From Pleurocapsa sp. CCALA 161 (GTDB taxonomy: Bacteria > Cyanobacteriota > Cyanobacteriia > Cyanobacteriales > Xenococcaceae), in NCBI RefSeq assembly GCF_003003995.1, contig NZ_PVWF01000001.1, forward strand, positions 62,001 to 126,000: DNA of 64,000 nucleotides, written 5' to 3'. This document shows positions 23,894 through 41,005 of this stretch, piece by piece. Position numbers and translations under genes: made by a program. Under the pieces are notes generated by a model. That model made no database searches, was not told where the DNA came from, and saw only the letters and a program-made list of their open reading frames with translations. Each line of letters starts with the position of its first letter. Position 1 is the stretch's first letter.

Positions 23894-25780
23894 TCATCTT
23901 TTAAGATTGAGGCGATTAAGAATTCGATTAGCAAGTTGTTGAGCAAGAACTGGTTTGATGACTAGATCATTAGCACCACTAGCAAATACTTCCGTGGAAA
24001 TCGAGTCATCACGATGAATACTCAGAAAGAGAACTGGTAACTTACACCAGTATGAATGAGTTCTGAGAACTTTACACAGTTCAATTCCGCTCCGATGAGG
24101 CATTTCTATATCCAGTACGAGTAGATCGGGTGCAACCGCTTGAAGTACATCCCAAAATTGTCGCGGATCGTCTAGGGTAGTAAGTTTAAATCCCCAGGGT
24201 TTCAGTAGAGTTGGTAAGGTTTGCAAAAATTCTATGTCGTCATCGACAATCATAATTTTTTTATCTAGAGATGAATATTGTGCTGCTTTTTGGCAAACAG
24301 TAATGACTTGCTTAGGATTAACTGGCTGGGTAAGATAAAACTTGCCTCCGTGCCGTGCCACGAGTAAACGATCTTCAAAGCGATCGCGATCGGCAATGAC
24401 GATTACTGGTATAGATGGTGTAAGTAGTTTAAATTCTGCAATTAAGCCCAAATACTCTTCTTTAGTAGGTGATTGAGCAGCATCTTCAGCAAAAAATACT
24501 TTGAGTACCACCGCATGGGGAAGTTGTTCCCCTCTGATTTGTTTTTCTTCCAGCCAATGCTTAGCTTTTTCTGGAGTAGAAATTGTCTTGGTACGAATTT
24601 CTCGATCTATTGCTTCAGAACTCAACTGCTCGATAAATTGCTCATCTTCGCCAATGATTAATAGTAAAGGCAAATTATCGGCAAATTTTTGGGATATTTG
24701 CTCAACAATATTTTGTTTGAGGGCCAATTCTTGTCGTAAAGACTCAAATTTATGTGACAGTAGCAGTAATTGATTTGAGTCTTGACTAAAATCCTCTTGG
24801 AGTAATTGTTCTATATCTTTAGCTAATTCAGAAGCTCGGTCTAGGCCAAATTGTCCTAGGTTTCCCGCCAAAGTATGAGCGGTAATAATTGCCGAGAGGC
24901 GATCGCTAATCTCTAGATTGCCCGCATCTAATGCGGCGATTGCTTGAGCTAATATTGCTAACTGTTGTTCTCTTTTGGACTGATGTTTTGACCAAATAGA
25001 AGTTAAAGCGGCAATGTGTTGCGATCGCTTATTTGGTTGCTCAGGAGAAACTGAAGCTGTATTGGGGGTGGTTTGCCGCTCATCTGTACCAACATTATTA
25101 TCTTCAGGAAAAGCTCTCAGACAATAGCCTTGTCCCCTGACAGTGGTAATTAAATTATCAGGAAAGCCCTTTTCCTTTAATTTTTGGCGTAAGCGTCGCA
25201 AATGAGAACGGACTGTGGCGATCGCTGGATATTCCGTAGATGACCAGAGGCGATCAATAATATCTTCAACCGAAAAGACTTCTTGACTATGACGTAAAAA
25301 CAACTCCAGCAATCGGTATTCTTTAGCGGTTAGAAATAACGATTGTCCCTGATAAATAACTTCGCTAGTACAAGGATTTAATTTGAGATCTCCCCAATGC
25401 AAGATAGGTAAAAAATCACAGGTCAATCGACGTAATAAAGCTCGGATACGCGCAGCTAACTCTTCCACATCAAAAGGTTTACAAATATAATCATCTGCCC
25501 CAGCATCAAGACCACGTATTTTATTTTGACTACCACTACGAGAGGTCAACAAGATAATGGGAGTATCATAATCATGAGCGCGAAAACGTTGGCATAACTG
25601 AATTCCATCCAGCTTGGGCAAAGACCAATCGAGGATAATTAAATCATAGGTATAGGTAGAGCCGTAAATCCAGCCTTGTTCCCCATCTGTTGCCACGTCC
25701 AGGGCATAATTTTGTTGGGCAAGAGTTTTGGTCAACAATTCTACTAAAGCTTCATCGTCATCAACTAATAAAATTCTCAT
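23894..25780 (-). CDS. multidomain response regulator: REC - OmpR-type wHTH - HPt - degenerate REC - REC
   Basis: A 628-residue DNA-binding phosphorelay protein. REC1 is residues 1-117 with phospho-acceptor Asp51 and Lys101. The OmpR/PhoB winged helix is ~128-225 (LTAKEYRLLELFLRH, RSHLRRLRQKL, VRGQGYCLRAF). An HPt-like module covers ~265-350, with His302 in AHTLAGNLGQFG. The middle receiver-like domain (~372-497) lacks the acidic pair and Asp-containing strand. REC3 is ~508-628 with Asp557 in LLVLDIEMP and Lys609. It lies 198 bp downstream of a single-REC protein and its kinase on the same strand, so all three probably form one pathway. Confidence 0.9.
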   Translation of the reverse strand: MRILLVDDDEALVELLTKTLAQQNYALDVATDGEQGWIYGSTYTYDLIILDWSLPKLDGIQLCQRFRAHDYDTPIILLTSRSGSQNKIRGLDAGADDYICKPFDVEELAARIRALLRRLTCDFLPILHWGDLKLNPCTSEVIYQGQSLFLTAKEYRLLELFLRHSQEVFSVEDIIDRLWSSTEYPAIATVRSHLRRLRQKLKEKGFPDNLITTVRGQGYCLRAFPEDNNVGTDERQTTPNTASVSPEQPNKRSQHIAALTSIWSKHQSKREQQLAILAQAIAALDAGNLEISDRLSAIITAHTLAGNLGQFGLDRASELAKDIEQLLQEDFSQDSNQLLLLSHKFESLRQELALKQNIVEQISQKFADNLPLLLIIGEDEQFIEQLSSEAIDREIRTKTISTPEKAKHWLEEKQIRGEQLPHAVVLKVFFAEDAAQSPTKEEYLGLIAEFKLLTPSIPVIVIADRDRFEDRLLVARHGGKFYLTQPVNPKQVITVCQKAAQYSSLDKKIMIVDDDIEFLQTLPTLLKPWGFKLTTLDDPRQFWDVLQAVAPDLLVLDIEMPHRSGIELCKVLRTHSYWCKLPVLFLSIHRDDSISTEVFASGANDLVIKPVLAQQLANRILNRLNLKR

Positions 25781-25978: not shown

Positions 25979-26359
25979 TTAAATTTCCCATCTCAATATT
26001 TTGGCTATTTGACTAGCCAGGGTCATAGAATTAAAGGGTTTGGTAATTACATCCACCACACCTAAGCTTTGAAACTGCTTTTTTTCCACAGCTTGGGCTT
26101 TTGCCGTTAAAAAAATAACGGGGATAGTACTAGTTTTGTCGTTGTTTTTGAGGTGTGATAAAGTATCAATGCCGTCCATTCCAGGCATCATGACATCGAG
26201 TAGAATTAGGTCAGGCTGATGGTTTTGAGCCAAATCAATTCCTACCAAACCAGAAGAAGCGATCTCAACTTGCCAACCTGCTTCGATGCTGATGCCCACC
26301 TGAACTACCTCCTGAATCGTTTCTTCATCGTCGATGAGTAAGATATTTTTTTTAGTCAT
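25979..26359 (-). CDS. single-domain response regulator (CheY-like)
   Basis: A 126-residue receiver domain without an output domain. The acidic pair is Asp10-Asp11 (LLIDDEE), the phospho-acceptor is Asp55 (LILLDVMMPG), and the C-terminal Lys is in VITKPFNS. It is 13 bp downstream of the histidine kinase, so co-transcription is nearly certain. It may pass phosphate between the kinase and the HPt of the next gene. Confidence 0.93.
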   Translation of the reverse strand: MTKKNILLIDDEETIQEVVQVGISIEAGWQVEIASSGLVGIDLAQNHQPDLILLDVMMPGMDGIDTLSHLKNNDKTSTIPVIFLTAKAQAVEKKQFQSLGVVDVITKPFNSMTLASQIAKILRWEI

Positions 26360-26372
26360 GGCGATCGCTCTT

Positions 26373-28544
26373 TTACTGAATTAGTTCGGGTAAGGTGAAA
26401 TAAAAAGTACTGCCGTTCTCTAAACCACTTTCAGCCCAAATTTGCCCGCCATGTCCTTCAACTATCTGGCGACAAATAGCCAAGCCTAAACCAGTACCCC
26501 CTTTCTTACGAGAATCAGAAGAATCTACCTGTTGAAACCTCTCGAAGATTGTTTCTAGACGATCTTGGGGAATACCCTGTCCTCGATCCTGAACAGCAAA
26601 AGTAATGTAGGAGATTGATTGATTTTGGCGATGAGGCAAAGCCTCTGCTAGATGCGAAGCGCGAAAAAGCGTTGGCGGGGTTTCCCCGCTTGAGCTTATT
26701 GAGCAAGAAGCGGTATCTTTGAGGACGCGATCGCGATTTTTCTGAGGACTTGCAAAGAGCATTACAGTACTTTTAGGCGGAGAAAACTTGATTGCATTGC
26801 TGACCAAATTAGTCAGAGTTTGCACTATGTAATCTCGATCTGCCCACACAATCAGATCGTTGGGTTTAAACGATAGCTGAATCCCCTGTTCTTGAGCTAA
26901 GTTTTTCATGGCTTGAACAGCTTCGACCATCAATTCTTTAGTTTGACAGGCTTGTTTGTTCATGTTGATTTTGCCTGACTGAATTCTTTGGAGATCGAGA
27001 ACATTATTGACTAGATGTACTAGTCGCTCAGTTTGTTCGTCGGCAATTTTCAGCATCCGCTTTCCTTGATGAGAAAGACTACCTAGTTTGCCCGTGGCTA
27101 AAATTTTTAGCGAACTATGTATGGAAGTTAAAGGCGTTCGCAGTTCGTGGCTAACAACAGAAAGAAATTCGTCTTTCATCCGTTCGATCGCTTTGCGATC
27201 GCTAATATCACTACTCAAAGCAAAAAAACCTTGAATTGTATTCTGTGATTGAAGATGAGGAATATAAGTAACGCTGAGAGAATGTACACATCCATCCTGC
27301 AAGACTAAATCTCGCTCGTAGGTAACGGTTTCACCCTTAAGTGCTGTGGCTACGTACTGGCTAATTTGTTGGTATTCGTCTTTGCCATGAACTTGGGCAA
27401 GATGGCGATCGCTCATCTCTTCGGGAGATAGTCCCAACCAAGTTTGATAAGCCTGATTGTTAAAGCGATAATGCTGTTGGCAATCTACATAGGCAATCAA
27501 TACAGGTAAACCATTGGCAATTAAGCGTAGTTGCTCTTCACTGTGACGTAGTGCTGTTTCTGCTTTGGTGCGTTCACGGAGTGCGGCTTGTCGTTCGCTA
27601 ATTTCCTGCCTCAATTTAGCGGTACGTTCAGCAACTATACCTTCCAAATTTTCTAGCAATTCCCCTTGAAATAGAGCAATGCCAATTTGATCGGCTAATT
27701 GTTGCATTAGTTCCTGTTCAAACTCAGTCCACTCTCTCGGTGCTTGACATTGATGGGCAATTAATAAGCCCCAGAGATGTTCGCCCTTGCTTGAAGACTT
27801 AGTATTTTGGAGGATCGGCACAACCAGCTTGCTTTTTATTTGCCACTCCTTCATAAACTCAATGAGGCATTCGGCTAATCCCGCATCAGGTGCATGAACA
27901 TTAGCGATCGCTCTGATTCTTCCCTGAGTATATAGCTGGCGATAATCTGCGGGAAATACTTCTTCAGGAAACTCTACGCCTAAAATTGGCTTGAAGTCTG
28001 GTAATACAGCTTCTTTAATCGGCATCCCTGTACCATTACTAAATACCTGATAAATTAAGACGCGATCGGCTTGTAAGATTCTTTGTACTTCGCTTACGGC
28101 AGTTTGAAGAATTTCTGGTAGCTGTAAAGATTGACGAATTTTGAGGGTAACTTCAGCAAATAGTTCTACCCGTTGGTGATGGAGATTTAGTTCTGTTGCT
28201 TCTTGCTGTATAGAATCTGTAATGTCTCTAAAAACTAGTAAGTTATGGTGGGGGAGGAAATCTTTAACCAGGCTATATTCAGCCACCTTAGTTTTTCCCT
28301 GTGGTTGTTTGAGCTGAATTTTGGCTCGCTTTTGTACCTGTTGACTATCTATAGATGACAGCAAGAAATCACCGATTAATTTACCAATCAGCTTTTTTTT
28401 TGTTGCGCCAAATAACTTACAAGCAGCAGGATTGAGTTCTACTATGTGATCTTGGCGATCAAGAATGGCGATCGCTTCTGAAGAATGTTTATATACTGCT
28501 TCTAAGAATAACTTTTTGGTTGGAGATTTTTTTGCTCCCGCCAT
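26373..28544 (-). CDS. sensor histidine kinase: PAS - GAF - PAS - HisKA - HATPase
   Basis: A 723-residue cytoplasmic kinase without membrane helices. PAS1 is ~14-110; the GAF is ~130-295 with phytochrome-like segments (YRQLYTQGRIRAIANVH, KLVVPIL, LWGLLIAHQC) and a cysteine, Cys226, at the position where bilin-binding GAF domains carry their chromophore Cys, but followed by Leu instead of His. A coiled coil is ~300-335 and PAS2 ~338-450. HisKA has His466 (SVVSHELRTPL). The HATPase has Asn583 (VSNAIKFS), G1 DRGQG 653-657 and G2 GGTGLGL. Residues ~601-643 form an unusual insertion encoded by palindromic repeat DNA. Its partner receivers lie directly downstream. Confidence 0.92.
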   Translation of the reverse strand: MAGAKKSPTKKLFLEAVYKHSSEAIAILDRQDHIVELNPAACKLFGATKKKLIGKLIGDFLLSSIDSQQVQKRAKIQLKQPQGKTKVAEYSLVKDFLPHHNLLVFRDITDSIQQEATELNLHHQRVELFAEVTLKIRQSLQLPEILQTAVSEVQRILQADRVLIYQVFSNGTGMPIKEAVLPDFKPILGVEFPEEVFPADYRQLYTQGRIRAIANVHAPDAGLAECLIEFMKEWQIKSKLVVPILQNTKSSSKGEHLWGLLIAHQCQAPREWTEFEQELMQQLADQIGIALFQGELLENLEGIVAERTAKLRQEISERQAALRERTKAETALRHSEEQLRLIANGLPVLIAYVDCQQHYRFNNQAYQTWLGLSPEEMSDRHLAQVHGKDEYQQISQYVATALKGETVTYERDLVLQDGCVHSLSVTYIPHLQSQNTIQGFFALSSDISDRKAIERMKDEFLSVVSHELRTPLTSIHSSLKILATGKLGSLSHQGKRMLKIADEQTERLVHLVNNVLDLQRIQSGKINMNKQACQTKELMVEAVQAMKNLAQEQGIQLSFKPNDLIVWADRDYIVQTLTNLVSNAIKFSPPKSTVMLFASPQKNRDRVLKDTASCSISSSGETPPTLFRASHLAEALPHRQNQSISYITFAVQDRGQGIPQDRLETIFERFQQVDSSDSRKKGGTGLGLAICRQIVEGHGGQIWAESGLENGSTFYFTLPELIQ
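26616..26744. repeat. repeat-like, palindrome-bearing segment inserted in frame in the kinase ATPase domain
   Basis: This stretch encodes kinase residues ~601-643, where the ATP-binding domain normally has a short turn between two strands. It contains two near-ideal hairpins, GAGGC-AAA-GCCTC (26633-26645) and GCGGGG-TTT-CCCCGC (26675-26689), and GCGAAGCGCG-type sequence, so it looks like a small repeat that entered without breaking the frame. Confidence 0.6.
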
Positions 28545-29040
28545 GATTAAATTTGTAATTATTTTTATATAATTATTTTTATTAAATAAGTTTAACTTGA
28601 ATTAAACTTTGTTATATCAAGGCGACACTAAAATTAACTAACTATATTAAATAATGTCTCGCACCAAAGATTACCGTTTGCAGCTATAAGCTTTTTTGAT
28701 AACAGTTTCTTGTCAAAGAGATAGAAGCTTGCTCAATAGCATTATAGTTAAGTAATATCATTTTTTTGGTATTAATCGCATTAAAGACAAAGACCACTCC
28801 TTGAATTCGATAGCTATCTTTAATTCGACTTCTGCTTCTATGATATTGTTGGTTGTTACTTGATATTTTCTTTACCTTTGCATATACGGAAGAGATAAGC
28901 TTTTGCCTTAAGCACCAAGCTTATCTCAATCTCATTAAGCTCCAGATAGTTGAATCGTTAATTTAGAAATATCAACTTATTGGATCTAGTTATTCTATTG
29001 CCTCAAAGGTTGTCACTTCAGAAATCGAAGTTTTTCCTAA
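28545..29040. other. 496-bp intergenic region ahead of the kinase gene
   Basis: AT-rich sequence between the 173-residue gene and the histidine kinase gene, both on the minus strand. It should carry the kinase promoter and any terminator of the allophycocyanin unit. I see no credible coding frame, structured RNA or long repeat. Confidence 0.4.
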
Positions 29041-29562
29041 TTAGTTGTGATTATGTTTGGGTTCATAAAACACGGTTTCTATTGGTTGAGAATAAGCCAA
29101 CGCTTTAGTCCGAGTCTTGGGCTGTTCGTACAGTTGCGTCGAGTTATTGTTACCGTATCCAAACATTTCCTGAGCCTTTGACGGCTTAGAAGCCTGATAT
29201 AAACTGTACTTTTGGGTTTGATAAGTAGTTTGATACAGTGTATTTTCAACACCATTAATCCTTGTCAAATCAGGTTGCTCAATTCCCTGAGACGGACGAT
29301 AAAAGTAATCTCCAAAGGGTTGCTTTTGTTTGAGATAGGGTTGAGACTCAGCTTGAGGTATTCTATATTGTAGCCAGGGAAAAGGTTGAGGCTGTGAATT
29401 TATTGGCTGCTGATACACTAACTGCGGATTTTCATCTGCTAACATCAGATTCCACTGCCAGTTTTTGAACATTTTGCCGATAAAGGTGTTAGATAAGTCA
29501 ATAAATCGGGCAATTGCTGCCCACCAGGGATATCGCTCCTGGGTTTTATTAGAAGCGTACAT
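29041..29562 (-). CDS. hypothetical soluble protein with CP43/IsiA-like N-terminal signature
   Basis: A 173-residue protein, 83 bp downstream of the apcB3-like gene on the same strand. Residues 11-29 read YPWWAAIARFIDLSNTFIG, matching the conserved cytoplasmic N-terminus of the CP43/IsiA/Pcb family (Y-x-WWAGNAR-[FL]-x-N-L-S-G) at most of the defining positions. No transmembrane helix follows. The rest (about 45-173) is hydrophilic and rich in Gln, Tyr, Pro and Asn. Low-light allophycocyanin clusters elsewhere carry a CP43-like isiX gene here, so this may be a remnant of one, or a recruited docking or linker protein. The function is unknown. Confidence 0.7.
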   Translation of the reverse strand: MYASNKTQERYPWWAAIARFIDLSNTFIGKMFKNWQWNLMLADENPQLVYQQPINSQPQPFPWLQYRIPQAESQPYLKQKQPFGDYFYRPSQGIEQPDLTRINGVENTLYQTTYQTQKYSLYQASKPSKAQEMFGYGNNNSTQLYEQPKTRTKALAYSQPIETVFYEPKHNHN

Positions 29563-29645
29563 AGTAATAGTTTGACTTTAGCAGTAATTTTTCAAGTAGG
29601 CTCACCCGTAACTGAGGGTAGGCTTTAAAAGTAAGTTTTCAAGAC

Positions 29646-30131
29646 CTATTTCAGACCATTAATTATATGATCGAGATAGACATCCATTTCTTGTCCCGCT
29701 TCAGTCCCCACCCGTTGAGTTACTACTTCTTTCATAGCCTGGAGAGCCTGAATTATCGGCTCAATAGGAACTCCAAGTGATGAGTAGGTGTCGTTTAAAC
29801 CATTTAGTACTCGCTCATCTAGAATCGAGGTATCAGCTGCCAGCATCGCATAAGTGGCGTAACGCAAAAAGTAAGTTAAATCCCGTAGACAAGCTGCATA
29901 GCGTCTTGTGGGGTACATATTGCCCCCAGGGAGTGTAATATCTCCATATAGCAGGCTTTTTTCAACTGTTTGACTAATAATACTGGCAGCACTAGATCCG
30001 ATTTTATTAGCTGCATTGACCCGTAAATTACCAGTTTGAAAGTATTTTTTGAGCTGGTCTAGTCGGTTACCCTCAAGATATTGACCTTTCTCATCAGCAG
30101 GGTTAATAAGGGAAGTAATTGTGTCTTGCAT
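29646..30131 (-). CDS. apcB3: allophycocyanin beta-subunit paralogue (ApcB3-like)
   Basis: A 161-residue phycobiliprotein closest to ApcB by eye (start [10 protein letters not shown], core [20 protein letters not shown]). The bilin-attachment Cys81 is in [17 protein letters not shown], and the methylatable Asn71 in PGGNMY is kept. It departs from standard ApcB at many positions, and the main apcAB operon is not here, so it is a paralogue. The gene is 135 bp downstream of an ApcD-like alpha subunit, the arrangement of the apcD4-apcB3 low-light pair. The two would form alpha-beta units with a red-shifted bilin. The assignment to the ApcB3 subfamily is by recall and context, not by a tree. Confidence 0.8.
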
Positions 30132-30266
30132 GAGTGTTTATTATTTTAATTACGAAGTTAGGTACAGAAAAAATGCGCTCTTGTATGCTTTAACTTGTCT
30201 CTCCTCAGAGCCTAGATTTTTTACGCTTAAACCAAGTCCTCAAGAGGTTTAAAAGAGATACATCTC

Positions 30267-30740
30267 CTAAAAGGCACGTATGAGCTGATCGAAATAAGGA
30301 CCAGCTAAGGCAGCTTCCTCTGAAGTTAATAGACCCATCGCAACTGACTTTAAGCAGCGCATTGCTAACTTCAGATTAGCTAGGGGAACTTGTAGAGAGG
30401 TATACATATCGCGCATCCCATCTAGTCCAATGTCTTCTAAGGGCTTAGAATTACCAGCCAGAACGCAATAACTGACTAGGCGAATGTACCATCCTTGATC
30501 TCGTTGGCAAAGGGCTGTTTTTTGTGAATCGCCGCTGTTGCTAGGAGTATTAGAACACTGAGACCAGAACTGCTTACTGCCTTGGTCGACAATTTTCTGT
30601 TCGTTAGCTGCCAGTTTTTGGGCAGCACTAATACGTACACCACCTTTGTTGAAAAAATCTTGAAGCTGAGTTAGCTCGGCGCTACTCAAAAATCGATCGG
30701 ACATATCTGATTGAGCAATTACTTTAGCTACAATACTCAT
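30267..30740 (-). CDS. apcD4: allophycocyanin-B alpha-type subunit (ApcD4-like)
   Basis: A 157-residue ApcD-type alpha subunit: MSIVAKVIAQSD at the start, ENEQKIVDQ-like helix (NEQKIVDQGSKQFW), bilin Cys78 in KTALCQRDQGWYIRLVSYC, and GPYFDQLIRAF at the end. Extra aromatic and polar changes around the bilin (Trp59, Gln79, Gln82) set it apart from ordinary ApcD. ATG 30740 is chosen because AGAGG precedes it at a proper distance and it fits the family; the frame extends 14 codons further upstream. ApcD4/ApcB3 proteins are known to make far-red-absorbing allophycocyanin in other strains. Confidence 0.8.
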   Translation of the reverse strand: MSIVAKVIAQSDMSDRFLSSAELTQLQDFFNKGGVRISAAQKLAANEQKIVDQGSKQFWSQCSNTPSNSGDSQKTALCQRDQGWYIRLVSYCVLAGNSKPLEDIGLDGMRDMYTSLQVPLANLKLAMRCLKSVAMGLLTSEEAALAGPYFDQLIRAF

Positions 30741-31326
30741 TGATGAATTTTCCTCTAAATTGATACTACTTTCTCTGGGCAAATTTTCATTTGAAAACTT
30801 ACCTCCAAACCGAAATAAATTTTTAAAATAAACTCTAAAAATTTATCGATCTACTAAACAAACAAGGATTAAAAATGATTCGGAAAAATGTTTCTATTAA
30901 TAATCACTTTTTTGTTTAAATTGGTGCTTTTTTAAAGCCGTTTTATAAAATTTAAACGTTTTCTTTTCTATGTTTAGAATATCATATCTAAATTCTTATT
31001 TAATAAAGGTTAACATATATTTTGGGGATTTAAAAAACTATAAAACTTGCTATTTTTCTGTGTTTTCAGCATTTTTATCGAATTAATGCTTTTGCTCAAA
31101 GTTATTGATACTTAATAAATAAAATGCTTAAAGTTAAATAAACTAAACATTTTTTGAGTTAGTTTTTTACCAAATCATAGATTTTTATCAATTATTTTAT
31201 ATAAGATTAAGAAATGAAATTACCTCAGTCATTGGTAGGGGTATTTCATTCTAAAGAGAGACAAAATATGGTTATTTCAAGCAGCTATATGTCAAAAGTT
31301 TTAAGGGCAATTAAACAGCATTTGAG
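30741..31326. promoter_or_regulatory. long AT-rich leader/promoter region of the apcD4-apcB3 unit
   Basis: A 586-bp region with very high A+T and runs such as TTTAAAGCC and TTTTTTGTTTAAATTGG. It separates the allophycocyanin pair from the pcyA remnant. No coding frame is credible. A promoter for the minus-strand pair must be here, but no element can be assigned confidently. Confidence 0.4.
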
Positions 31327-31608
31327 TTACATAACGATCTGTCCAAGCCTTACCCATATAAAATTAATTTGGGGTAGATTAGCCAGACCTTGACTGTAAG
31401 CAGGAGCTAGAGTGCGATCGCGATTGACAGGAGACAGATCGACAATTGCTGCTGCGATACCAGACTGGCTTCCCACCAAATCTACGCCAAATATAGGTAG
31501 GTCGTAGTTAGTGCGGGGGAACATGACACAGTGCAGAATATCCAGGCGATCGCCTACTTGAGCTAACTCTAAATAGAGAAGACTTAAATTGAGTAACCAT
31601 TGGCTCTG
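31327..31608 (-). pseudogene. pcyA: pcyA (phycocyanobilin:ferredoxin oxidoreductase) internal fragment, decayed
   Basis: An open stretch of ~93 codons matching the middle of PcyA: LELAQVGDRLDILHCVMF, then PRTNYDLPIFGVDLVG and AAAIVDLSPVNRDRTL. The equivalents of the catalytic Glu76, His88 and Asp105 of the Synechocystis enzyme are all present and correctly spaced. A full PcyA has ~240-250 residues; here the N-terminal ~65 and C-terminal ~95 are missing, an in-frame TAA lies directly upstream, and homology ends at about NFIWVRLGQIV before a stop. It makes phycocyanobilin when intact, so its remains inside a phycobilisome locus suggest a former pigment-synthesis gene or a duplicate that was lost. 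Confidence 0.8.
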
Positions 31609-31734: not shown

Positions 31735-32064
31735 TCAATTTTGATGATCTTTAGCAGCTGGTTTTTTTGGGTGTCTAGTAGCTTCAGTTTCTTCAAGTGC
31801 TTCAGTATTATCCTTTTGTTCCTGCTGCTTCAAAGCTTCGAGAGATTGAATACTGACAATAGTTCCTCCCATTTTGCCAATACGCTGCATCTCTTCGTTC
31901 ATCCGACTATAAGGAACAGATACAAAGGCGCTGCTACTGCTGCGAAAAGCATAGTCATTGCTATCATTGGCTTGATTTTGCTTCAATCCCGTAACTTCAT
32001 ACACAAAAATACGATTGTTTGATGAAGAACTCGATCGCCCGCTAATTACTGATTTTCCTAACAT
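31735..32064 (-). CDS. cpcD: phycobilisome rod-capping linker CpcD, with C-terminal extension
   Basis: A small linker that caps the outer end of phycocyanin rods. Residues ~15-75 form the CpcD domain (RIFVYEVTGL, then VSVPYSRMNEEMQRIGKMGG and IVSIQSL). Total length is 109 residues against about 80-90 usually: a charged tail of ~30 residues (QQEQKDNTEALEETEATRHP onward) follows the domain. It is the last gene of the cpc operon, 13 bp after cpcC2. Confidence 0.93.
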   Translation of the reverse strand: MLGKSVISGRSSSSSNNRIFVYEVTGLKQNQANDSNDYAFRSSSSAFVSVPYSRMNEEMQRIGKMGGTIVSIQSLEALKQQEQKDNTEALEETEATRHPKKPAAKDHQN

Positions 32065-32077
32065 CTTTTTAAGTCCT

Positions 32078-32938
32078 TTAAGCTAAGGTAACGCTGGCAA
32101 CCTTTCCACCCATTTTGTTAATTTTTTTCAACGTGGGGGTAAGTTTATCGTAGGGTACTAAAATGGCTCGACTAACTCGACGCACCTTGGGATATCTAGG
32201 CAAATTCATTGCTGATATTTCAATGCGATAAATACGATTATCTTGATTTGCAGTTCTGAATGCTTTGTTGGGTGCGTTTCCTTGACTAGATTCTTGATAA
32301 CCCCAGCCAGTTCCTCCACCTGAAGGTGCGATCACCGCAGAAGAAGCATTTTGCGCCAAGTCTTTAGCTAAGCGGGATGTTTTTCCTGCAATCTGAGAGC
32401 GATCGCTATTGGCATAACCCCGATATAGTTGGAACATACGGGTGAAACCCACCATTTTCTGTGCTGGTTGAGTTGCAAAACCGATGTAATAGGGAACTAT
32501 ATTGTCACCAAAGTTGGCTTCATATTCTGCCGAGTCGATATAGTCGTCGATATCTGCCTCATAACCCTTATTTTGATAAAGATCGAGGTGATAAATCACT
32601 TCAGACTCGTCATAAGCTGCTCGCCCTAGCAAATGCTTGAGATTTAACTCAATTACTCTAGTTTGAAAATTGTCATAAAAGAACTTGGTTTTATAGAGTT
32701 CTGATTTAGCTACCGCCCGCACAAATTCTCGCACCGTCAGCGAACCATTACACAGTAAAGATTCTGTAGCGGTTAACCGCTCGGACTGCATAATATAGTC
32801 GTTGCCCAGAACCTGACGATAGACAGCATTAATTACTGTTTTGGCGTCGTCTTGAGTCCAATTGGAACGTAATTCTAAAGGTTTGCGATCGTTAAAAGCA
32901 GAAACCCCTAAACGAGAAGCTGCTGTTGTAATTGCCAC
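32078..32938 (-). CDS. cpcC2: phycocyanin-associated rod linker CpcC (second copy)
   Basis: A 286-residue linker. The N-terminal linker domain (PF00427 type, about 20-150) contains [29 protein letters not shown] and [12 protein letters not shown]; the C-terminal CpcD-type domain is ~230-286 ([27 protein letters not shown]). It joins successive phycocyanin hexamers. It is 28 bp from cpcC1. The start is GTG with CAGGAG a few bases upstream; no ATG fits the family beginning. Confidence 0.95.
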
Positions 32939-32966
32939 TTACTATTCTCCTGATTATTAATTAAAA

Positions 32967-33782
32967 CTAAGCATTGGTAATGCTGAGAATGCGACTACCC
33001 TGCTTGTTTAGCTTTTGCATAGTTGCAGAAAGTCTTTCGTAAGGAACGACATATTCCTGCATACTGCGACGTACTTGGGGTGCGCGTCCCACTGTTCCTT
33101 TAGTAACTTTTACCCGATATAATCCGCCTCGATCCGTAATGGTTGTACCAGAAAGAGAACCATTGCCTCCAGGACTACGCACGGCAGTTGCCATATTACG
33201 AGCTAAATCATAGGTTAAGCGAGGGCTACCTGTGTTACCTTGAGAGCGATCGCTATTGGCATAACCTTGATATAGTTGGAACATTCTGGTAAACCCAACA
33301 GTTTTTTGTCCTGCTTGGGTGGAAAAACCCCGATAAAAGGGAACAATATTATCGCCAAAGCTCTGCACATATTCCTCAGAATCGATATAAGAATCGATAT
33401 CTGCTTCAAAGCCCTGATTTTGATAGAGATCGAGATGTTCGATGATTTCCGATTCATCGTAGGGGGCACGACCGAGTAAGTGTTTGAAGTTCAACTCAAT
33501 CGTACGAACCTGATAGTTGTTATAAAAGAATTTTGATTTATAAAGTTCTGATTTTGCTACTGCTCTAACAAAGTCACGCACTGAGATTGAACCATCTGCG
33601 AGCAGAGATTCCGCACCGCTTAGACGTTCTGATTTCATCAAATGCTCGTTGCCTAAAACGTGTCGATACACTGCGGCGATCGCCGTGACAGCATCTTCTT
33701 TATTCCAATTGGGACGTAGTTCTACTATGTTAGTCTCGTCGAAAGCAGAAATTCCTAGGCGTGATGCTGCTGTAATTGCCAT
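32967..33782 (-). CDS. cpcC1: phycocyanin-associated rod linker CpcC (first copy)
   Basis: A 271-residue rod linker with the same two-domain structure as its neighbour: linker domain ~18-150 ([25 protein letters not shown]) and CpcD-type domain ~220-271 ([28 protein letters not shown]). The two copies share long identical stretches, showing a tandem duplication. Which copy is core-proximal cannot be decided from sequence alone. ATG start with CAGGAG upstream; 121 bp from cpcA, a gap with a small hairpin that commonly lowers linker expression relative to subunits. Confidence 0.95.
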
Positions 33783-33903
33783 TGGTTATACTCCTGATTT
33801 TTTTTTGATAGGTACATTAAAAAAAGTGCCTGGAATTACAGTTGACCATTAAACAAACTAGTAAAGCTCAATAGTCATCTGGGATTCCAAGCTACTAGAA
33901 AAT

Positions 33904-34392
33904 CTAGCTTAGAGCGTTAATTGCATACTCAATGTAGGAGTTAGCTTCCACAGCAGGATCGCCACTTAAACCATGATTAGCTTTAATGTATTTAAGAGCT
34001 TCTACATACCAGCTAGGAGAAAGCTCGAAAGTAGTGTTAATTTCCGCAACTCCCGCAATTAGATAATCATCCATAGGGCCCGTGCCACCAGCAACTAGAC
34101 AGTAGGTGATCATTCGTAAATAATAACCAATGTCGCGAGCGCATTTAGCTTTACCTTCAGGAGTAGAGGCATAATTTGGTCCCTGCATTTGAGTAGTGTA
34201 GGGAAACTTGGTGTAAACTGCTTGCGCTGCACCTTCAACTAGTTTGTCTGCTTGATTAGTTAATCCTTGAGCAGCTTCTAAACTTGCGTTAGCCTGGCGA
34301 AAACGACCAAAGGCAGTTTGAATTTCGCTACTACTTAAGAAACGACCTTGAGAATCAGCAGCCGATACTGCTTCGGTTATAGGAGTCTTCAT
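33904..34392 (-). CDS. cpcA: phycocyanin alpha subunit
   Basis: A 162-residue globin-like light-harvesting subunit. Phycocyanobilin attaches at Cys84 ([18 protein letters not shown]). The beginning [20 protein letters not shown] and the end [10 protein letters not shown] are those of CpcA. It pairs with CpcB encoded 68 bp upstream. No lyase genes (cpcE/F) are found in this window. Confidence 0.98.
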
Positions 34393-34460
34393 GGATAAAA
34401 TACCTCTGGGAATAATGTTTTACTATGTTTAACTAAAAGATGAATTGAGGTAGGAATAAA

Positions 34461-34979
34461 TTAACCTACAGCAGAAGCAGCACGATCAAAGTAACTGGAT
34501 ACTTCTGACATTAGAGAACTACAGTCTCCTTGAGTTACACCATTCTTGTCATTAGCTAAAGCGATCGCCGCTGCCTTCATTTTGTTTACAGCTTCCGCTA
34601 CAGAACCACCAGGAACACCTAATGCTACATAAGTTTCTCTTAAACCATTTAAGCAACGATCTTCTAAAACACTGCCATCGCCAGAAAAAGTAGCATATGT
34701 AACATAGCGCAAGATAATTTCCATGTCTCTTAAACAAGCAGCCATGCGACGGTTAGTATAGGCGTTACCACCAGGGGCAATTAACTGAGGCTGTTCAGCA
34801 AACAGAACACGAGCAGCATTAGCAACAATAGCGGAAGAGTTTCCTGTGATGCGGTTTACAACATCCATTCGTTTGTTGCTATCTGCCACCATACTTTTAA
34901 GTGCATCAAACTGACCTTGATTGAGATAGTCACCTCTAGCATCAGCTTGAGAAATCACTCTGGTAAATGCGTCAAACAT
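34461..34979 (-). CDS. cpcB: phycocyanin beta subunit
   Basis: A 172-residue subunit with two bilin-attachment cysteines, Cys82 ([16 protein letters not shown]) and Cys153 (TQGDCSSLM), and the methylated Asn72 (GGNAY). The ATG at 34979 (MFDAFTRV) is the family start, with AGGAG upstream; a TTG directly before it is not used. First gene of the operon cpcB-cpcA-cpcC1-cpcC2-cpcD, which encodes a phycocyanin-only rod. Confidence 0.98.
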
Positions 34980-35367
34980 CAATATTTCTCCTAAATCTTA
35001 GATTTACACCAAATGATTTTTTTAGAAAACTGATTCCTAACTTTGCTTTACAGAATAGAAGTTTTCAACTCTTTAAAAAGTTAGGAGATTCAGTGACATT
35101 TGGATAACACTTATTCAATCAAAGTCTTTGTGCAGTTCTTGTGCAATCAGGTCTTGAGAAAATAAAGTTTTGTATGTTTTTGTGATGATAAGTTTATTTT
35201 TTACCGTGTCTAATATCATTAATCCTTTCTGAGATAATTTGGTAATCCTGTTTTTTGTTGATTGACCAGAATTACCACGATTTACTCTTGGTTAGCTTTA
35301 GAGATTTTTTCTTCGTCTTGTTGCGCGAATGAGGAGTAATTACTAATCACCAATCATCAATCACTAA
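34980..35367 (-). promoter_or_regulatory. cpc operon promoter and leader
   Basis: A 388-bp gap between cpcB and a small minus-strand gene. Near the cpcB start is a good ribosome-binding site (TTTAGGAGAAATATTG). The rest is AT-rich with runs of T, typical of the long untranslated leaders of cpc operons. No specific promoter hexamers are assigned. Confidence 0.5.
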
Positions 35368-40519: not shown

Positions 40520-41005
40520 GGATGTCTCCTGTAATGATTGCAATGTAGCAGGGCAAAATACTTGGCTTTAATATTTATTTTTGTTACATTTTTGTCTGAA
40601 TTTATATTATATGATTAATGAATTGAAATGTTTAACTATTTTGCCGATCACTTGGCTGCCGAACTGAAGATAAAAGTAATAGTGCAGTAATATTGTATTG
40701 CTGACGTTTTTTAAAAGCGATGATTGTTAGCTTCAACTATAAAATTAGTTTAAAGATAGTAGCATCTGCACAAATAATTTTTGTGTAATTTTTGCAGCAA
40801 TCAGATATTATTAATATTTATGAAATAAATTGAATACACAGGCAAAATAACTAGTTATTAAAATGTGTCCAGCGCTTAATCTGCTTGAAAAAGGTAGTTG
40901 TTTTTACTATTTTTCAGACTAATCTTTATGAGCTAATTTTCCAATAAATCTATAAGTCTATAAGTCTAATTTAGTTTCATTGATATATTTATTATTTTTG
41001 TTGCG
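40520..41005. other. 486-bp intergenic region between divergent genes
   Basis: AT-rich spacer between the ABC-F gene (minus) and the receiver-membrane protein gene (plus). It must contain promoters for both. No coding frame, RNA or long repeat is evident. Confidence 0.4.

Follow-up and report, generated by a model that had tools for sequence, protein, structure and literature searches.

The window analysed here, a stretch of 64,000 nucleotides from Pleurocapsa sp. CCALA 161, carries three minus-strand reading frames next to its phycocyanin operon, and these frames raise the question of which light-harvesting complex they encode and what the third of them contributes to it. In the original prediction, the first two were read as an alpha gene of the ApcD type and a beta gene of the ApcB type that match the pair apcD4-apcB3 of the low-light (LoLiP) operon; the third was called unusual, and the unit was described as lying away from other low-light genes. 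The three frames were recovered where they had been predicted. Their coordinates and those of the neighboring features are collected in Table 1; with an alternative TTG start, the apcD4 frame would encode 171 aa. The linkers in the phycocyanin operon are named after their families, and the two regulators farthest downstream are presumably rcaF-like (25979..26359) and rcaC-like (23894..25780).

Table 1. Features of the cassette and its surroundings (positions in the window)
Feature	Coordinates	Strand	Remarks
apcD4, far-red allophycocyanin alpha subunit	30267..30740	-	157 aa from ATG; Cys78, Ser11, Lys74
apcB3, partner beta subunit	29646..30131	-	161 aa; Thr4, Pro11, Asn71, Pro74, Cys81
delta-isiX, isiX minus chlorophyll-binding core by in-frame deletion	29041..29562	-	173 aa
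delta-isiX, N-terminal part	29479..29562	-	28 codons; homologue of the intact IsiX N-terminus
delta-isiX, C-terminal extension ("ruler" tail)	29044..29478	-	145 codons retained
delta-isiX, Tyr50-Tyr122 stretch	29197..29415	-	five invariant tyrosines: 50, 66, 88, 110, 122
Cassette, approximate extent	28642..31299	-	compared with the empty site in G012, where the pcyA end joins the rcaE upstream region
pcyA remnant	31300..31581	-	Fe_bilin_red piece 31369-31581; 3' end 31300-31358
Phycocyanin operon, upstream	31735..34982	-	cpcB, cpcA, two rod linkers, small cap linker
rcaE-like histidine kinase, downstream of cassette	26373..28544	-	PAS, GAF, PAS, HisKA, HATPase
Small receiver-like protein	25979..26359	-	rcaF-like by position
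Response regulator	23894..25780	-	two receiver stretches, winged helix, Hpt domain

Profile searches assigned the products of the first two frames to PF00502 (4.2e-50 for alpha and 1.2e-54 for beta), and both bilin cysteines were present, as predicted. This genome contained 24 PF00502 matches, 4 of them on the window contig (the pair and two matches coinciding with cpcA and cpcB) and 20 on other contigs. The best PDB match of the alpha subunit was 8ddy_A (263.3 bits), followed by ApcD5 (170), and the best match of the beta subunit was 8ddy_B (262.2 bits), followed by one at 223.9. 8DDY is the helical far-red allophycocyanin of thermophilic Synechococcus/Thermostichus. Published diagnostic residues were also compared. 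In the available text of the structural work, alpha-Ser11, beta-Thr4 and beta-Pro11 are named as specific to ApcD4 and ApcB3 (PMC10038336); in that of a second paper, beta-Pro74 is given as conserved only in ApcB3, and alpha-Lys74 is likewise listed (PMC11614940). All of these residues are found in the window pair, with Ser11 taking the place of Ala11. Ser11 was present in all 47 readable ApcD4 sequences from 48 genomes, the window included, and the seven tested beta positions were identical to those of the window in 45 of the 48. Neither Ser11 (alpha) nor Thr4 with Pro11 (beta) occurred in the 17 examined of the genome's 22 other PF00502 matches; the five left out of this check comprised fragments of ApcE-type frames and a single distant match.

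Trees were built by a quick method, without bootstrap and without a named ApcD1-5 reference set. In the alpha tree, the 48 ApcD4 rows lay on one side of a branch with an SH-aLRT value of 99, and eight paralogues from this genome lay outside it; in the beta tree, the 48 ApcB3 rows were separated in the same way (SH-aLRT 98) from five such paralogues. Sequence L112, which falls inside both clades, had 8ddy_A as its sole PDB match at E<=1e-60. The window pair, located on contig C89, was not among the FaRLiP paralogues, whose cluster is on contig C136 and which belong to other clades. On the best PDB matches, the diagnostic residues and the trees, the pair is ApcD4-ApcB3, as had been proposed, and it does not group with the ordinary allophycocyanins of this genome. 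The pair and its operon are known biology (LoLiP): genes of this kind had been listed for Xenococcus sp. PCC 7305 and further genomes by Olsen 2015 (PMC4477158), and for the ApcD4-ApcB3 of relatives, absorption at 709 nm and helix formation are established and co-purification with IsiX is reported (PMC10038336). The window pair would accordingly be expected to form a helical rod that absorbs near 710 nm.

The third frame had no Pfam match at E<=1 (hence no PF00421), and its NCBIfam match was at chance level (E 0.15). When it was searched in 60 relatives, matches were found in 8. Three of these were full length, in this genome (G000), in G011 (97%) and in G004 (88%). In G001, G018, G019 and G044, residues 1-29 and 27-173 matched two places approximately 1 kb apart, both inside single frames of 480-503 aa, and G043 gave a weaker match of the same two-place kind. 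These long frames are isiX, adjoining apcD4-apcB3. In the alignment, approximately 300 residues are gone after residue 28, at a junction common to the window, G011 and G004; the G004 short form has extra small length differences, each a multiple of three bases. Identity of the tail to G018, G001 and G019 was 61-82%. Hydrophobic spans were absent from the short forms, and four or five were found in each of five intact IsiX.

An AlphaFold model of the intact G001 IsiX, which with a mean pLDDT of 49.5 is a weak control, had six long helices. The deleted part takes in all six apart from roughly the first five residues of the leading helix, and the rest of the tail was without predicted structure, bar short helices just after the cut. 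For delta-IsiX itself no confident fold was obtained (mean pLDDT 54, pTM 0.17); a helix was predicted with low confidence at residues 27-44, at the junction. Judged from the alignment, the third gene derives from isiX through a single in-frame deletion, with the C-terminal extension of IsiX present and the six-helix chlorophyll-binding core gone. An unrelated third gene or a new linker family was ruled out by this alignment and by the two-place matches. The third gene, called unusual in the original prediction, is not an unrelated partner; that it is an isiX without its chlorophyll-binding core had been overlooked. Because a deleted isiX in third place gives the LoLiP order apcD4-apcB3-isiX, the statement that the unit is not near other low-light genes fails. 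By its gene content, the unit is an altered LoLiP operon. At 29507-29523, approximately 40 bases into delta-isiX, where the codons differ from those of intact isiX, a seven-pair hairpin precedes an AT-rich stretch; this region held no more sites of the kind than shuffled sequence did.

A search for the IsiX core covered 13 genomes, and no second core, either whole or moved away as a split gene, was found in the short-form genomes G000, G011 and G004. The best match in G000 was IsiA-like, with two such genes at 58%. The only full-length match in G011 (99% complete) was a CP43-like protein at 49%, accompanied by a 172-residue fragment at 58% that is interrupted by an internal stop, and G004 had a match at 49% and a 59-residue piece at 63%. 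All three short-form genomes are multi-contig drafts, but it is extremely improbable that the deletion is an assembly error or that the core lies elsewhere in the genome, given that the same junction recurs in the three, that their retained N-terminal part carries a substitution (N17I) found in none of 43 intact IsiX, and that, the 59-residue piece of G004 excepted, nothing exceeded 58%.

The frequency of the short form was determined in a survey. Of 388 genomes sampled from the class, 33 had ApcD4 at E<=1e-58, as did 18 of 388 sampled from the order; three were in both sets, for a total of 48 genomes. Beside apcD4-apcB3, isiX was a single frame of 451-568 aa in 43 of these and the deleted form in 3; it was split in two frames in one (G367) and unseen at a contig end in another (G407). 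The third gene was matched in 6 of the 27 genomes of the window's family (3 deleted, 3 intact) and in 4 of the 13 of its genus (3 deleted, 1 intact). In the alpha and beta trees, the short trio groups together within the intact forms (SH-aLRT 94 in both). A search of 63 genomes with full-length IsiX at E<=1e-120 returned 18 long isiX and the split gene of G367; this search is blind to short forms and was not used for counting them. A second deletion in SynAce01, which comes from the named set of at least 24 loci, was ruled out, its isiX being about full length with an interrupted frame. The interrupted genes can be read in two frames at L081:9182-10701 (SynAce01) and L107:3778-5251 (G367).

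The tail that the deletion spared contains a recurring motif. In 46 tails (43 intact, 3 short), [VILFMA]Y[EQ] occurred 233 times, compared with 21.9 on average and at most 37 in 300 shuffles, although these tails are related by descent and hence do not amount to 46 independent tests. Enrichment was also found in five single tails tested alone, only weakly in the case of G004 (P 0.01-0.02). Five invariant tyrosines are spaced 16-22-22-12. These distances depend on the alignment, except that the first needs no gap: 16 was found in 46 of 46 tails, the first 22 in 30 (range 19-25), the second 22 in 41 (22-24) and 12 in 38 (12-13), and the mean pairwise identity of the sequence between the tyrosines was just 32-42%.

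In a model published in 2023, the IsiX tail was proposed to thread the tube as a ruler and to bring it to photosystem I; the same source leaves it possible that the tail is instead wound around the tube externally, and gives the tube repeat as seven protomers over 72.6 A (PMC10038336). At an assumed extension of 3.3 A per residue, 22 residues would cover 72.6 A, the published repeat; the extension being assumed, this agreement was not counted as evidence. The words "tyrosine" and "motif" are absent from the main text of PMC10038336, and its passages on "repeat" concern the helical unit. Longer tails were seen in the intact IsiX of L101:5517-7115 (205 residues), where a tandem duplication is visible by eye, and of L111:1949-3655 (241 residues); they might be naturally occurring rulers of other lengths.

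Selection on the short gene was estimated by comparison of the window with G004. The dN/dS of delta-isiX was 0.42 (13 synonymous and 23 non-synonymous differences; Fisher about 0.016), compared with 0.08 for apcD4 and 0.18 for apcB3. Since the dN/dS of the C-terminal part, 0.48, is above the 0.09-0.24 found among three intact forms, the tail of the short gene seems less constrained than that of intact IsiX. Selection on this gene appears weak, and, because the window and G011 are nearly identical, it is read in effect from two sequences.

The seven tail positions that are invariant in 43 intact IsiX (W35, Y50, Y66, Y88, L109, Y110 and Y122 in window numbering) are kept in all three short forms, whereas three of the six invariant N-terminal positions (G16, N17, R19, S24, T26 and F27) are altered in at least one of them, N17 being replaced by Ile in all three. 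The Fisher P for this strict contrast was 0.07; at a 90% threshold, changes were found at 1 of 12 tail positions versus 5 of 11 N-terminal positions. Position F121 is Phe in 42 of 43 intact IsiX and Leu in all three short forms. In a neutral simulation, an open frame with all seven anchors was retained in 0.4% of runs with 67 changes (about the synonymous divergence) and in 4.3% of runs with 36 changes (the observed number). In this small sample, the N-terminus looks as if it had lost its former role, and the tail as if it were still under constraint.

It is on balance probable that this LoLiP operon has had its isiX cut to a soluble protein composed of a 28-residue N-terminal part and the C-terminal extension, and that the tail organises an unanchored rod. 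Most likely, delta-IsiX would be a soluble, membrane-free linker of the far-red rod. More tentatively, it may be a working disordered linker whose five tyrosine anchors, at 16-22-22-12, organise far-red nanotubes detached from chlorophyll. The proposed course is as follows. One in-frame deletion reduced isiX to its N-terminal 28 residues and its C-terminal extension. ApcD4 and ApcB3 would assemble into a helical far-red rod, the tail could bind repeating sites of this rod via its evenly placed tyrosines, and the bound tail would set or stabilise the length of the rod. Without the membrane core, the rod would no longer be tethered to photosystem I through IsiX and might work unanchored or through another acceptor.

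If delta-isiX is instead a slowly decaying remnant, ApcD4-ApcB3 would have been kept and IsiX lost, and the short frame would have survived through the short time elapsed and by travelling with the useful pair in recombination. This is the main alternative, and the available text of PMC10038336 agrees with it in reporting that recombinant ApcD4-ApcB3 form tubes without IsiX. Loss of IsiX also occurs elsewhere, as in the split gene of G367 and the interrupted gene of SynAce01. The dN/dS of the short form, higher than that of the neighboring genes and of the intact tails, and the loss of invariant N-terminal residues point the same way. However, the frame has stayed open in each of the three species, G004 differs in length by multiples of three, 7 of 7 invariant tail residues are retained, and neutral change reproduced such an outcome in just 0.4-4.3% of simulated runs, so that we regard decay as rather unlikely.

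It is improbable that the short protein still docks at the membrane via another partner and keeps the rod tethered, with the N-terminus and its predicted junction helix, or an IsiA-like paralogue, replacing the lost core. The two IsiA-like genes of G000, with 58% identity to the IsiX core, could supply such a paralogue, and the low-confidence helix at residues 27-44 and the change of N17 to Ile in all three short forms would be compatible with such docking. Yet G011, at 99% completeness, offers only the CP43-like protein (49%) and the broken 172-residue piece (58%); because it has no full-length match beyond the former, an IsiA partner is not general. The N-terminal motif that intact IsiX share is also disrupted in the short forms.

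Should delta-IsiX indeed be a soluble linker of an unanchored rod, IsiX would consist of two modules, ruler and antenna, that can exist apart, and there would be a far-red antenna lacking the IsiX connection to photosystem I. A natural gene that has the tail tyrosines and their spacing but no membrane core makes the ruler idea directly testable, and the conserved spacing points to residues for mutation. With the tether gone, the destination of the far-red energy becomes a question. What appears new here, from the sequences compared, is the coreless isiX and the conserved tyrosine spacing: neither was found in the literature searched, which took in PMC6424891 besides the papers cited here but not the main LoLiP physiology paper. 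That search returned no paper on isiX with Pleurocapsa or on truncated isiX with the phycobilisome, and none joining rcaE, pcyA, chromatic acclimation and Pleurocapsa.

Several known systems were compared with the window. The LoLiP operon of thermophilic Synechococcus/Thermostichus (8DDY), as far as it is described in the available texts (PMC10038336, PMC4477158, PMC4658448), has the same subunits, gene order and strand, an isiX-derived third gene and the same published helix-specific residues. In contrast to it, the window isiX lacks the chlorophyll-binding core, the window kinase is rcaE-like with one GAF domain where the LoLiP photoreceptor LcyA has two (PMC12214013), and the unit sits in the cpc-pcyA-rcaE locus of a Pleurocapsa-like genus. 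In Halomicronema hongdechloris, whose ApcD4/ApcB2 is described at 728 nm, ApcD4 and a beta partner also lie beside an isiA-like gene, no LcyA-type photoreceptor is reported nearby in the available text, and the genome also has a FaRLiP-type cluster; the differences are an annotated isiA2 in its cluster (PMC12279586) and Trp instead of Thr at beta position 75. The FaRLiP subunits ApcD2, ApcD3 and ApcD5 with ApcB2 resemble the window pair as far-red alpha subunits with a shortened loop (PMC11614940). The window pair nevertheless falls outside the paralogues of its own genome on C136. The IsiX of Hyella patelloides LEGE 07179 (L040/L066) and of an uncultured Pleurocapsa (L041/L085) have a tail identity of 77-82% and the same place behind apcB3, the latter also with the same kinase downstream, but both are full length with the core present (475 and 498 aa). 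EPYC1, CsoS2 and other disordered repeat linkers that bring enzymes together presumably share with delta-IsiX predicted disorder and a recurring short motif; no sequence relation is claimed, and the partner proposed here is the allophycocyanin helix.

Dependence of the short form on FaRLiP was also considered. A FaRLiP-type cluster is present on C136 (L045:5173-17394), with psbA, a ChlF-like PsbA of 418 aa, psbC, psbD, psbB and apc genes; rfpABC and psaAB copies were not identified in the stretch of C136 examined. An NRPS-like ORF lies upstream of this cluster at L045:140-3580. Among eight genomes, the ChlF-like protein was found at 82-100% in G000, G004, G003 and G002 (82-87% in the latter three) and not in G011, G001, G019 or G018. 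The only match in G011, at 61%, is at the level of ordinary PsbA, and no psbC2-like match was found there. Since G011 carries the short form without a ChlF-like protein or a psbC2-like match, the short form is independent of FaRLiP, and such a dependence was ruled out.

The location of the unit directly beside the phycocyanin operon is explained by the cassette sitting between pcyA and the rcaE-like gene. This site is free of such a cassette in several species of the genus. The order cpc-pcyA-rcaE without a cassette was found in G002 and G012; G008 and G010 have no room for one at this place, and in G003 the rcaE stretch is 94% identical to that of the window, with neither pcyA nor cassette there. 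Compared in 250-base steps, the cassettes of the window and G011 were 93-100% identical; their dS was 0, against 0.74-1.03 for the flanking genes. The comparison with G004 gave a dS of 0.12-0.15 for the cassette versus 0.88-1.61 for the flanks. The simplest reading of these values would be a recent homologous exchange of the cassette between species. Over 491 codons of the three cassette genes, the window and G011 (L038) differ by 0 synonymous and 10 non-synonymous changes, which is an odd excess of amino-acid replacements. Where the window has its pcyA remnant, an ORF of 243-256 aa that looks complete is found in G011, G004, G002 and G012; three other bilin-reductase genes are present elsewhere in this genome.

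The GAF domain of the rcaE-like kinase had 8k9o (209.6 bits) and RcaE 7ckv (209.5) as its best PDB matches, the next being at 103. A two-GAF photoreceptor of the LcyA type was not found adjoining the cassette, the adjacent kinase having one GAF domain. This kinase has 723 aa in the window, 749 aa in G003 and 685-696 aa in most relatives. Because it is longer and its matches to other relatives stop near residue 600, an in-frame insert in its ATPase domain is indicated. Control by RcaC through an L-box was considered and rejected: TTGCAN4TTGCA with at most one mismatch had 2 matches in 64 kb, compared with 9.4 expected by chance, and these, at 40530 and 46813, are near neither cpcB nor apcD4. 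Scans for promoters and terminators gave no more sites than shuffles. In G007, a different phycobiliprotein cassette (L168:2706-6151) with CpcB-, CpcA-, linker-, ApcA- and ApcB-like ORFs lies between pcyA and rcaE, as though antenna cassettes could be accommodated at this site.
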